This document shows, piece after piece, positions 3,497 through 11,532 of a stretch of DNA of 34,167 nucleotides. Source of the stretch: Pseudomonadota bacterium (GTDB lineage Bacteria; Pseudomonadota; Gammaproteobacteria; Burkholderiales; Sulfuriferulaceae); assembly GCA_021845925.1 (NCBI GenBank), contig JAJZUW010000009.1, forward strand, positions 1 through 34,167, read 5' to 3'. How positions within the stretch are numbered: the first letter of the stretch is position 1; each line of letters starts with the position of its first letter. The notes beneath the pieces are model-generated. The model was given only the letters and a program-made list of their open reading frames with translations, did not search any database and was not told the DNA's origin. The position numbers and the translations under genes were made by a program.

Positions 3497-4795
3497 TCAG
3501 TTTCTCAGCTTGCGATACAGTGTCCGTTCGCTGATGCCCAGTTTTTCAGCCAGTTGTTTGCGGTCGAGTTGATGTTGCGCGCTTACCCATTGCAGATACT
3601 GTTGTTCCAGGGCGTCCAGGGAAATGATGCTGGTGCCATAAAAAGGATTCCGGCTGGTGGGTTCGGTGGCAATAGGATCGTTTGCCAGGTGTTCTGGCAT
3701 GAGGATGTCATTGTCGGATAGCAGTGAGGCGCGTTCCAGAATATTGCGCAGTTCGCGGATGTTTCCCGGATAATCCAGTTGTAGCAACAGGTTGATGGCG
3801 TCGGGATGCAGTTCGAGATTCCGTTGTGGGTTGATGCGGGTCAGCAAGGCCTTGGCAAGCAGCGGAATGTCTTCCCGGCGTTGTGACAGTGAAGGCAGGT
3901 GAATGGGAAATGTGCTGATCCGGTAGTACAGATCTTTGCGGAACTGTTCCTGTTCGACCATTTTTTTCAATGGCCGGTGCGTGGCCGAGACCAGACGAAA
4001 ATTGGCCCGTAGGGGTTCGATTCCGCCGACGCGGCGGTAAGTTCCGGTTTCAAGCAGGCGTAGCAGTTTGACCTGCAGGCTGAGTGGGATATCGCCGACT
4101 TCGTCCAGAAACAGCGTTCCGCCGCTGGCGGCTTCCACCAATCCCTGTTTGCGCTGGGATGCGCCGGTAAACGCGCCTTTTTCGTAACCAAACAGTTCGC
4201 TTTCAAACAGGGTTTCGGTCACGCCCGAACAGTCAACGGGTACAAATGGCCCATTTCTGCGGCGACTGGCGTTGTGAATGGCCTCGGCAACCAGTTCCTT
4301 GCCGGTTCCGGATTCGCCCAGCAGCAAAACGGCGGCATCCGATGGGGCCACCCGTTCCACCAGTTCCAGCATCCGGTTGAAGGATTGCGAGCGACCAACC
4401 AGCCCATTGCGATCAGGATGCGCGCTCGCCTGCCTGATTTGATGCATCATTTCAACAAACCAGGTGATTTCGCCTTCCTGGTTATGAATCGGTGTCAGTT
4501 CGACATCGACATGTTCTTCGCCACGAGCCGTGTGATGCAGATGCAGGGTGCGCTGGCTTTGCCCGCTTTGCATGCTGGCCTTGAGCGGACAGGTTTCGCC
4601 TGCCTGGTCGCAAGGGCGGGTGTAGTGGTGAGAAACCTCATAGCAGTGGCGGCCGACAATTTGCTGTTGTCCGCCAAAAGTTTCCCGGTAGGCGCGGTTG
4701 GCGGCGATGATCGTGTAATCGCGGTCCAGCAGGATACGGGGTTCCGGCTGGTGTTCGAGATAAGACAGCAGGGCAGGCAGGGATGGATGTTGCAT
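3497..4795 (-). CDS. fisR: Sigma-54-dependent activator, FisR-type sulfane-sulfur sensor
   Basis: This 432-residue bacterial enhancer-binding protein has an N-terminal PAS domain (about 10-120), an AAA+ core and a Fis-type HTH. Walker A is GESGTGKE (160-167), the sigma-54 contact loop is GAFTGA (207-212) and Walker B is GGTLFLDE (225-232). The HTH includes [16 protein letters not shown] at the C-terminus. The PAS domain carries C51, C62 and C69 in the pattern HC-x10-C-x6-C; as I recall, the Cupriavidus FisR sensing cysteines are C53, C64 and C71, the same spacing. FisR activates sigma-54 transcription of persulfide dioxygenase and SQR genes on sensing persulfides. It is divergent from cydPAB and faces a consensus sigma-54 promoter, so its target here is probably the whole cyd-pdo operon. 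An Fnr/NO-type sensor is unlikely because no GAF domain is present. Confidence 0.85.
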
Positions 4796-4808
4796 GCGAA
4801 AATTCCGG

Positions 4809-4824
4809 ATGCCAAATTTGGCAT
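4809..4824. promoter_or_regulatory. 16-bp perfect palindrome, candidate FisR enhancer/autoregulatory site
   Basis: ATGCCAAATTTGGCAT is fully self-complementary, 13 nt upstream of the fisR start and about 240 bp upstream of the sigma-54 promoter, a workable distance for an enhancer acting by looping. A -10-like TAGAAT for fisR (minus strand, 4828-4823) overlaps its edge, so binding could also repress fisR. A second short palindrome, CTGGCCGGCCAG, lies at 5018-5029. No other gene is seen in 4796-5126. Confidence 0.45.
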
Positions 4825-5064
4825 TCTATCCTTAAATTGCCCTGCCAGACATGACAAATTTGACAGATGAGGCGGTCGGCTGATTGTGCCATCATGCCCC
4901 AATGCAGTTGCTGTCTGACGGATTTACGGCCCATCAAAAAAATGTCCGCTGCAGGCTTTTGTCATTTTTAATTATAAAATTCATTGTGTTGTGTCGTTGT
5001 GTCTGATTTTTTCCATTCTGGCCGGCCAGGCTGGTCGTGTGTGTGGGAGGTGAGTCTGTGAATG

Positions 5065-5080
5065 TGGCACGCCCCTTGCA
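5065..5080 (+). promoter_or_regulatory. Sigma-54 promoter of the cyd-pdo operon
   Basis: TGGCAC-N5-TTGCA matches the -24/-12 consensus exactly, with GG at 5066-5067 and GC at 5078-5079. Transcription should start around 5091, leaving about 35 nt before cydP. With a sigma-54 activator encoded divergently, this predicts activator-dependent expression of the downstream operon. Confidence 0.88.
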
Positions 5081-5126
5081 AAAGAGGCATGTGGTTGAAC
5101 CAACGATGACGCAGGGAGGACCTGGT

Positions 5127-5348
5127 ATGCGCGATATGTGGCAACACCCGCTGGGCCGGCATCTGGTGGTGATTTTGCTGGTCAAGCTGCTGGCCATCTG
5201 GCTGATCTGGTTTGCTTTTTTTCGTCCGGTCACACCGGCATTGCCGGTAACGCCTGAGCAGGTGGGGGCGGAACTGGTGGGGAATCATTCTGCAGTTACG
5301 GCCGGGATCATCCCGTCATCACATTCATCAGGGGAGTCTGTCAAATGA
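5127..5348 (+). CDS. cydP: CydP-like small membrane subunit associated with cytochrome bd
   Basis: This 73-residue protein has a short basic N-terminus, one strongly hydrophobic helix (about residues 12-33, containing VVILLVKLLAIWLIWFAFF) and a polar, Pro/Ser-rich C-terminal tail. Position directly before cydA and the K-LL-x-WLIWF-FF helix pattern match the family annotated as putative cytochrome oxidase small subunit CydP. The start is ATG 5127, 6 nt after a good GGAGGA; a longer in-frame opening back to 5037 would overlap the sigma-54 promoter and is rejected. Its stop overlaps the cydA start (ATGA). It presumably sits in the inner membrane and helps assembly or stability of the oxidase. 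Confidence 0.75.
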   Translation: MRDMWQHPLGRHLVVILLVKLLAIWLIWFAFFRPVTPALPVTPEQVGAELVGNHSAVTAGIIPSSHSSGESVK

Positions 5349-10050: not shown

Positions 10051-10127
10051 TCCCGCCTGTAATCAGTGGACTGCTGAAAAGGAAGTGGGGCATGCCGCAG
10101 CGGAGATCCCGGTGAGGCATGTCTGTT

Positions 10128-10153
10128 AACCGTTGCATCGATCTGCGACGGTT
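10128..10153. terminator. Weak hairpin after the rhodanese gene
   Basis: AACCGT (10128-10133) and ACGGTT (10148-10153) form a 6-bp stem with a 14-nt loop and no T-tract. A second weak stem, GGCGG/CCGCC, overlaps the rhodanese stop. Either could attenuate the operon before sqr, but neither is a convincing intrinsic terminator, so readthrough into sqr is possible. Confidence 0.25.
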
Positions 10154-10209
10154 GTCAAGGGAAATGGGTGTGTTGGGCGGAGAGCCACGATTGCACGTGG
10201 CGTACGAGA

Positions 10210-10241
10210 TTGATTGGTATAAGAATATCTTTATATTCTTA
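10210..10241 (+). promoter_or_regulatory. sqr promoter with overlapping 9-bp-arm palindrome
   Basis: TTGATT (10210-10215) and TATATT (10232-10237) are 16 nt apart. Perfect arms TAAGAATAT (10220-10228) and ATATTCTTA (10233-10241) cover the spacer and -10. The half-sites read GAAT-N8-ATTC. An ArsR-type repressor operator is the simplest reading; SqrR/BigR-type regulators of sulfide genes bind AT-rich dyads of this size, with the SqrR core recalled as ATTC-N8-GAAT, the opposite half-site order. There is no sigma-54 element here. sqr starts 22 nt downstream. Confidence 0.6.
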
Positions 10242-10263
10242 AGTTTTGTAAAGGCAGATTGCT

Positions 10264-11532
10264 ATGGCACATATCGTTGTACTGGGAGCGGGAACTGGTG
10301 GTACGCCAGCCGCTTATGAATTGCGCGAGGCGCTGGACGACTCACACAAGGTCACACTGATCAATGCCTCTGAGATTTTCCAGTTTGTTCCGTCAAATCC
10401 CTGGGTTGCCCTGGGCTGGCGCAAGCGTGAGGAAACCACATTCCAGATCAGGCCTTACCTGGAAAGACGTGGCATCCAGTTCATCGCGCAGCGGGCAGAG
10501 AAGATCGATGCCGCCAACAACCGCATCGAACTTGCGGATGGAACGGTGGTTGAATACGATTATCTCCTGATCGCTACCGGTCCCCGACTTGCATTCGAAC
10601 TGATCGAAGGTGGCGGACCAGAAGGCGGATTCACCCACTCTGTCTGTACCGTGGATCATGCTGAAAAAGCATTCGCGGATTATCAGCGATTCCTGGATGA
10701 TCCCGGGCACGTGGTGGTAGGCGCATTTCAGGGCGCCTCCTGCTATGGTCCCGCATATGAATATGCACTGGCGCTGGAAACCGATCTGCGTCGCCGCAAA
10801 ATCCGTCCGCAGGTGCCCATTACCTTTGTCACGGCAGAGCCGTATGTCGGCCACATGGGTCTCGGTGGCGTCGGAGATTCACGCGGCATGCTGGAAGGCG
10901 AACTGCGTGACCGCCACATCAAGTGGATCTGCAACGCCAAGGTCAGCAAGGTGGAAAACGGCAAGATGTACGTGGAAGAGTATAACGATCTCAAGCAGAA
11001 AATCCGTGACCACGTGCTCGATTTCAAATTTTCCATGATGCTGCCGCCGTTCCGGGGCGTCAAGGCAGTCGCCGAAGTCGAAAACCTGTGTAATCCGGCT
11101 GGTTTTGTGGTGGTGGACCAGCACCAGCGCAGCAAGGCTTACAAAAACATATTTTCGGCGGGCGTCTGCATCGCAATTCCTCCTGTCGAAGACACGCCGG
11201 TGCCGGTTGGCACGCCAAAGACCGGTTACATGATCGAATCCATGGTCACGGCCATCGTGCACAATATTCGCGACGAACTGGCGGGAAAACCGGCGACCAC
11301 CACCGGAACGTGGAATACCATCTGCCTGGCGGACATGGGCGACACCGGTGCAGCATTCGTGGCGTTGCCGCAAATCCCGCCGCGTAATGTCACCTGGGCC
11401 AAAAAGGGTAAATGGGTGCATCTGGCCAAAGTGGCATTCGAGAAATATTTCATGTACAAGATGAAGACCGGCCATTCGGAACCGATTTACGAAAAATATG
11501 TGCTCAAGGCGATGGGCATCACCCGATTGTAA
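10264..11532 (+). CDS. sqr: Sulfide:quinone oxidoreductase, Acidithiobacillus type
   Basis: This 422-residue monotopic membrane flavoprotein oxidises H2S to sulfane sulfur and reduces quinone. It begins with the FAD-binding [13 protein letters not shown]. Cysteines C128 (SVCTVDHAE), C160 (GASCYGP) and C354 (NTICLADMG) match C128, C160 and C356 of the A. ferrooxidans enzyme as I recall them; two form the redox site and C128 is accessory. The C-terminal KVAFEKYF segment resembles the amphipathic membrane anchor. Long blocks such as [12 protein letters not shown] are shared with that enzyme. The gene lies 213 nt after the rhodanese with its own promoter and palindrome, so it may answer to a different regulator than the sigma-54 operon. 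Its quinol product would feed cytochrome bd. Confidence 0.93.

Follow-up and report, generated by a model that had tools for sequence, protein, structure and literature searches.

The window analysed here, a stretch of 34,167 nucleotides from a genome of the Sulfuriferulaceae, contains a gene for a FisR-type sigma54 activator, fisR2, back to back with a tight run of genes that begins with a cytochrome bd quinol oxidase and continues with genes for persulfide clearance. The FisR-cyd pairing is a recurring unit in one clade of CydA, the bd subunit I. The persulfide-clearing genes are an addition to this unit and can be lost along with the sensor. To judge from the sequence, it is likely that persulfide-activated FisR2 and sigma54 switch on a sulfide-tolerant quinol oxidase together with persulfide clearance. 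Bd oxidases are known to withstand sulfide, which poisons haem-copper oxidases, yet the control of bd oxidases is usually explained by oxygen. If our reading is true, the very product of sulfide oxidation induces this oxidase.

The locus and its regulatory sequences

The fisR2 gene (3497-4795, minus strand) is divergent from cydP-cydA-cydB-cydX-ybgE-pdo-trHbII-rhodanese (5127-10050, plus strand), and a sulfide:quinone oxidoreductase (SQR) gene, sqr2, follows 213 nt further on. All genes named in an earlier note on this DNA are where it had placed them, including the regulator divergent from an eight-gene run. Families were assigned by searches of NCBIfam and Pfam and of the PDB sequences.

3497..4795, minus strand: fisR2, PAS - AAA+ sigma54 activator - HTH_8 (PAS_4, Sigma54_activat, HTH_8), with cysteines 51, 62 and 69
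4810..4823: operator-like dyad TGCCA-N4-TGGCA, TGCCAAATTTGGCA, half-sites 9 bp apart, from sequence
4843..4865: three TGNCA half-sites in a run at 9-bp steps (4843, 4852, 4861), from sequence
5065..5080, plus strand: predicted sigma54 promoter, -24/-12 element TGGCACGCCCCTTGCA, 62 nt before cydP
5127..5348, plus strand: cydP, small subunit (NF045611, 43.1 bits, cut-off 29.6)
5345..6937, plus strand: cydA (PF01654, 565.7 bits; under both matched NCBIfam equivalog cut-offs)
7003..8142, plus strand: cydB (TIGR00203, 506.6 bits, cut-off 117.3)
8155..8283, plus strand: cydX (TIGR02106, 37.2 bits, cut-off 31.6)
8280..8540, plus strand: ybgE, its TTG start overlapping the cydX stop (PF09600, 75.6 bits, cut-off 25.2)
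8549..9256, plus strand: pdo, persulfide dioxygenase (PDO) of the metallo-beta-lactamase (MBL) fold (nearest PDB chains 9rhq, 4ysb and human ETHE1 4chl)
9246..9641, plus strand: group II truncated haemoglobin, trHb (PF01152, 136 bits; nearest chain 2xyk)
9670..10050, plus strand: single-domain rhodanese (PF00581)
10222..10239: AT-rich palindrome AGAATAT-CTTT-ATATTCT before sqr2, a possible separate regulatory site, from sequence
10264..11532, plus strand: sqr2, A. ferrooxidans-like SQR (3sz0, 598 bits)

In the 34-kb window, both strands included, the strict pattern TGGCAY-N5-TTGCW matches only once, at 5065, before cydP. The starts of two TGNCA pairs, at 4810 and 4852, lie 42 bp (about four helical turns) apart. 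The sigma54 control proposed in the earlier note thus gains a predicted promoter and paired operator-like sites, and the oxidase would be first in that transcription unit. A search for sigma70-like promoters over 3200-11800 gave 8 where 6.1 (standard deviation 2.2) are expected, and this lack of surplus gives no support for sigma70 promoters.

The run was described as tight, which is correct for its eight genes, with gaps of -11 to 65 nt (cydP/cydA -4, cydA/cydB 65, cydB/cydX 12, cydX/ybgE -4, ybgE/pdo 8, pdo/trHb -11, trHb/rhodanese 28), but not for sqr2. Because of its 213-nt gap and its own palindrome, sqr2 may have its own promoter. An ArsR/BigR-type control of sqr2 was considered and rejected: the genome has three HTH_5 genes, and the half-sites of the 10222 palindrome are absent from their three loci. 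The relative G009 (locus L040) has a similar palindrome, TTAGAATATATCAATATATTCTAA, in the same rhodanese-sqr gap.

By family matches the oxidase is of the bd-I type (CydA, CydB and CydX present), and no bd subunit I gene other than its cydA was found in the genome (2.34 Mb on 15 contigs). The genome also holds two COX1-type oxidase genes, with a further partial match under the cut-off, so that bd is not the sole oxidase; rpoN has one match. YbgE belongs to the broader Pfam family and scores under the NCBIfam equivalog cut-offs (55.3 versus 116 and 47.6 versus 89.55 bits). PDO is closer to the PDO/ETHE1 kin (9rhq 213, 4ysb 177, 4chl 166 bits) than to chains named hydroxyacylglutathione hydrolase, the best of which are 2gcu (134 bits), presumably plant ETHE1, and then 1xm8 (73 bits). 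The structures nearest to the haemoglobin (2xyk, 4uur, 1ngk, 2bmm) are all, we believe, group II truncated haemoglobins, and SQR matches 3sz0, which we take to come from A. ferrooxidans, over residues 2-422.

FisR2 as a probable sulfane-sulfur-type regulator

FisR2 has the sigma54-interacting AAA+ domain (PF00158, 228 bits) and the C-terminal Fis-type helix-turn-helix (PF02954, 25.3 bits) of its family, a divergent target with a putative sigma54 promoter, and an N-terminal cysteine triad, C51/C62/C69, with the spacing CX10CX6C. All rows of a 15-row FisR alignment have these three cysteines; the triad occurs in 114/114 rows of FisR2 and its sister FisR1, and is missing from the single outgroup row and from 7/7 other sigma54 activators compared. 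The earlier suggestion of a sulfane-sulfur-type activator therefore looks sound at the level of sequence. A structure prediction of FisR2 (mean pLDDT 67.1, pTM 0.34) is confident at 1-122 and in parts of the C-terminal third and poor at 123-229, and was kept out of any claim on cysteine geometry and of fold searches.

Alternatively, the regulator could respond to nitric oxide, to oxygen or to the redox state in general, with bd and trHb forming a nitrosative-stress unit. Bd oxidases and truncated haemoglobins are said to be tied to nitric oxide, and the N-terminal domain of the regulator is PAS-like. However, the FisR triad does not vary, pdo, rhodanese and sqr all encode sulfur enzymes, and FisR1 faces SQR wherever it was fetched outside the genus (see below), all of which makes this explanation very improbable.

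FisR and cyd are linked across a clade of CydA

The scan with CydA of the genus confirmed at least 579 loci, of which we used the best 80. In a quick CydA tree of 92 rows, one branch (SH-aLRT 100) holds 34 rows, 32 of them determinable: 21 with FisR, 5 with remnants and 6 without. FisR, intact or remnant, thus adjoins cyd in 26/32 determinable rows of the clade versus 1/57 determinable rows outside it, the sole outside case being Neptunomonas, with FisR downstream. Eleven of the 26 belong to the window's genus, and without that genus the linkage, among the best 80 of 579 loci, is 15/21 in the clade versus 1/57 outside, again for the determinable loci. The counts are the same whether the search radius is 3, 5 or 9 kb, and at 2 kb the clade figure is 14/21. 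Members of the clade include Cupriavidus basilensis, Vogesella urethralis, Aquitalea magnusonii, Pseudomonas sp. LD120, Azoarcus, Gallionellaceae, Hydrogenophilales and one Nitrospirae metagenome-assembled genome. On a plasmid of Pseudoalteromonas xiamenensis, a FisR (46%) is divergent from annotated CydP, cydB, CydX and YbgE, with cydA recovered by tblastn.

The same gene order recurs in the window's genus, so it is no rearrangement of one strain, and together with the linkage across the CydA clade this indicates that the arrangement is not due to chance. What recurs across genomes is FisR with cyd; pdo, trHb, rhodanese and sqr, which the earlier note had included in the unit, vary. At least one of these four lies within 6 kb of cyd in 8/16 and 5/16 FisR-linked loci (two sets) versus 8/64 FisR-less ones (Fisher p = 0.0024 for the first set, kinship ignored). 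For trHb alone the figures are 8/32 versus 0/64, counting short strong pieces such as that of L058. Many FisR-cyd loci have no pdo or sqr within 6 kb. Truncated haemoglobins reportedly bind sulfide, to go by the title of a paper by Nicoletti from 2010.

Two other associations of the oxidase were observed. In Methylococcaceae (L083, L086, L090), SQR stands beside cydAB without FisR, a second, separate SQR-bd pairing. In some FisR-linked cyd operons, a flavin adenine dinucleotide protein weakly like SQR (24-26% identity) is encoded between cydX and ybgE (L053, L152, L155) or after cydX (L065).

Promoter and operator sequences across loci

Using score weights based on the sigma54 consensus and excluding regions under 150 bp (FisR-linked L054, control L060), a sigma54 score of at least 18.8 out of 21.1 is reached before cyd in 8/14 FisR-linked loci, in 6/7 genus loci with intact fisR2, in 2/5 where fisR2 is broken and in 2/64 controls, one of the two being Neptunomonas. 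A stricter count, with at most one mismatch, gives 7/14 FisR-linked loci (3 exact) versus 4/65 (0 exact), with L056 and Neptunomonas placed among the 65.

FisR2 loci have 1.62-1.67 TGNCA half-sites per 100 bp versus 0.43 in 63 controls, and pairs at 9 bp occur in 7/7 genus loci with intact fisR2, in 11/16 FisR-linked loci and in 1/63 controls. The spacing differs at the genus FisR1-SQR1 loci, where it is 5 bp in 15/15, 8 bp in 11/15 and 9 bp in 0/15. Loci fetched later, several of which come from kindred genomes, repeat this pattern: 9-bp pairs are found in 10/16 FisR2-cyd and 22/37 other FisR2 loci, where shuffles expect 0.2-0.4 each, and FisR1 loci have spacings of 5 bp in 18/20, 8 bp in 20/20 and 9 bp in 1/20.

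FNR-like boxes behave in the opposite way. With at most one mismatch to the FNR consensus, they occur in 26/63 FisR-less cyd promoters (1.7 expected) versus 1/16 FisR-linked ones, a contrast weakened by the many controls from Gammaproteobacteria and by ignoring kinship. The genus has them in 0/7 fisR2-intact and 1/5 fisR2-broken loci. Inside the CydA clade the figures are 3/6 FisR-less versus 1/15 FisR-linked, small numbers in both cases.

Conservation and co-loss in the genus

We examined 18 genomes of the genus (G000 being the window's). fisR2 is intact in seven (G000, G005, G009, G013, G014, G016, G017), all with pdo beside trHb. In five others (G003, G004, G006, G011, G012) only fragments are left in place, and the surviving parts differ; pdo is a remnant in four of these and undetected in G012, sqr2 was found in none of the five, and cydA, cydB and trHb read open with cydX, ybgE and rhodanese matched in place. 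As for the rest, G015 has a pdo remnant and a contig that ends before fisR, G002 and G007 have an intact pdo and contig ends, G001 and G008 carry trHb-rhodanese without this cyd nearby, and neither trHb nor cydA was found in G010, which is 64% complete. The cydA frame of G017 (L047) stops prematurely, at 517 residues.

On the CydA+CydB tree, four independent pairs differ in fisR2 on starred branches and five on all branches. Among the four, pdo follows fisR2 in 4/4 and sqr2 in 3/4, counting as present the sqr2 of G017, which ends at a contig end; sign tests with four pairs cannot reach 0.05. G016 keeps fisR2 and pdo and has no sqr2. In the five relatives, fisR2 and pdo have been broken or lost together at least four separate times.

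The earlier note predicted a self-contained module, which holds only in part: fisR2 and pdo are jointly broken or missing in relatives that lack sqr2 and keep cyd-trHb-rhodanese, and the same genome encodes a separate FisR1-SQR1 pair (G000:C2), 45% (FisR1) and 64% (SQR1) identical to the window copies. FisR1 is full length in 16/18 genus genomes, facing SQR1 in 15 and on a different contig in G005; only pieces of SQR1 were seen in G002 and G010.

The co-loss in 4/4 pairs, with cyd, trHb and rhodanese persisting, and the behaviour of sqr2 in 3/4 could mean that pdo and sqr2 are the main targets of FisR2, the oxidase being expressed mostly from another promoter, constitutive or oxygen-controlled, and the sigma54 position being minor. 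Yet the sigma54 site and the half-site array stand before cydP and not before pdo, many loci link FisR to cyd where neither pdo nor sqr lies within 6 kb, FisR-linked cyd promoters seldom carry FNR-like boxes, and no sigma70-like surplus exists over 3200-11800. We consider this alternative unlikely, though less so than a sensor of nitric oxide, oxygen or redox state.

The view from the regulator

The survey of FisR scored at most four candidates per genome and found a match at E <= 1e-106 in 64/399 genomes of the order. Outside the genus we fetched 55 places of FisR2 type (51-71% identity) and 21 of FisR1 type. FisR1 faces SQR at 21/21 places, including L048 (G066), where a trHbII gene directly follows the FisR1-type gene, divergent from SQR and with no cyd. 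FisR2 adjoins cyd at 18/55, two of which coincide with loci of the CydA scan; the idea that FisR2 is exclusive to cyd was consequently rejected.

In the FisR tree, FisR1 forms one group (37 rows, support 99) and FisR2 the other (77 rows, support 94, not starred), with the caveat of a root on one long outgroup row and a long-branch warning. Within FisR2 the cyd label is mixed with other targets and needs 13 changes, 8 of them forced by starred branches. A single origin of the FisR-cyd pairing was therefore rejected, and our first tree, which had put 22 cyd-linked FisR into a single group, was too narrow.

The FisR2 places away from cyd comprise 4 with a PDO-like gene, 4 at contig ends and 29 others, among them L182, which has 1.1 kb of room and is better classed as a contig-end case. 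The N-terminal pieces of five neighbours read as a molybdopterin oxidoreductase, 4Fe-4S (two), SLAC1 and FeMo-Co-type proteins. At L150, L151, L154 and L157, FisR2-type genes have molybdopterin oxidoreductase genes, 4Fe-4S genes or both as neighbours, which may encode sulfur oxidoreductases.

The Cupriavidus basilensis locus is the link to the CHARACTERISED FisR. In strain KF708 a search at E <= 1e-90 gave one FisR match, located between a divergent PDO-family gene/SQR and cydA, which is preceded by an apparently cydP-like frame. A TGNCA array lies on each side of FisR, and TGGCACGGAACTTGTT lies before cyd; the SQR beside FisR has a BLH-type domain. In C. metallidurans CH34, FisR has arrays on both sides and a PDO-like gene, with no cyd within 6 kb.

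Several observations weigh against FisR2-sigma54 as the switch of the oxidase. At 37/55 places outside the genus FisR2 does not adjoin cyd, and so it is not a dedicated bd regulator. Five relatives have lost fisR2 and kept cyd-trHb-rhodanese, meaning that the oxidase is not dependent on it in every case. No sigma54 site at up to one mismatch was found in 7/14 FisR-linked loci, nor any sigma54-like match on the pdo side of the C. basilensis FisR. Spacings of 5, 6, 7 and 10 bp also beat shuffles in the 16 FisR2-cyd loci (4, 3, 3 and 3), meaning that the 9-bp rule is strong and not exclusive. An FNR-like box is also missing from 37/63 FisR-less promoters. Finally, a good sigma54 site before cydP survives in 2/5 fisR2-broken relatives, L034 (G003) and L041 (G011).

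A proposed sulfide-switched oxidase

We still favour activation of the oxidase by FisR2 and sigma54, for which we infer signal, activation, co-transcription and enzyme activities as follows. SQR would oxidize sulfide, feeding electrons into the quinone pool and releasing persulfide or polysulfide. Sulfane sulfur would then cross-link C51 and C62 in the N-terminal part of FisR2, as reported for C53-C64 of a Cupriavidus FisR, and the activated protein, at TGNCA-N4-TGNCA sites, would drive sigma54-RNA polymerase at 5065-5080. The predicted transcript is cydPABX-ybgE-pdo-trHb-rhodanese, possibly with sqr2. The bd oxidase would pass quinol electrons to oxygen while sulfide blocks the haem-copper oxidases; PDO would burn persulfide, rhodanese would move sulfane sulfur and the haemoglobin may bind sulfide or oxygen. 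FisR control of bd would be the inherited state of the CydA clade, and the other genes a variable attachment.

A broader proposal, which we hold with confidence only a little above even, is that a proteobacterial bd clade as a whole exchanged its oxygen input (FNR-type boxes) for one of reactive sulfur (FisR2-sigma54), yielding an oxidase dedicated to sulfide respiration. The sister FisRs would share TGNCA and be insulated by spacing, 5/8 bp in the SQR circuit and mainly 9 bp in the oxidase circuit. The pattern provides an explicit rule for the operator, connects group II truncated haemoglobins with sulfide stress and predicts a sulfide-switched oxidase in, for example, Aquitalea, Vogesella, Cupriavidus basilensis, Hydrogenophilales and a Gallionellaceae genome.

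Other features of the window and its genome

Towards its end the window carries an ArsR-type (HTH_5) regulator gene (33322-33729). At L225 (G000:C15, ~32.9-33.9 kb) an ArsR-type regulator, apparently of BigR type, is divergent from a second MBL-fold, PDO-like gene. Tandem repeats occupy 22457-22702 (127 bp x 1.9, 95% matches) and 33740-34167 (142 bp x 3.0, 97%), and the tRNA was the only known RNA element found.

Comparison with known systems

Among the matches listed, no title or abstract describes FisR control of cytochrome bd, which is weak evidence of absence. In the main text of a survey of bd evolution (PMC5322542), the terms sulfide, sigma-54, Fis family, transcriptional regulator and rhodanese do not occur. 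The cydPABX operon of Burkholderia cenocepacia H111 has cydP before cydA-cydB-cydX, as in the window; according to passages of PMC9104464 and PMC11742914, it is required for anoxic survival and induced under micro-oxic conditions, and RpoN, sigma54, sulfide and the Fis family are not found in their main texts.

In Acinetobacter baumannii, according to passages of PMC7315123, FisR is also divergent with a predicted sigma54 promoter, there facing pdo-sqr-tauE, and controls pdo-sqr. Sulfide raises the cydAB transcript in that species, but cydAB (A1S_1433-1434) is at a separate locus from FisR (1708-1711), unlike in the window, and those passages do not state that FisR controls it. BigR and SqrR exert a persulfide-responsive control of sulfide-oxidation genes, as we propose for FisR2, but they are described in the same passages (PMC7315123) as regulators of the ArsR family, not sigma54 activators.

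The FisR of Cupriavidus pinatubonensis JMP134 shares with FisR2 the sigma54 activator type and the three conserved cysteines, and the C. basilensis FisR is probably its counterpart. It is reportedly the subject of Li et al. 2017, and Cys71 is presumably the third cysteine of its triad. Passages of PMC9774590 describe three conserved cysteines in FisR, and passages of PMC9495516 report a Cys53-Cys64 tetrasulfide in the C. pinatubonensis protein, at a spacing that matches the window's. The targets described for this FisR are sulfide-oxidizing genes, whereas the first target of FisR2 would be a terminal oxidase.

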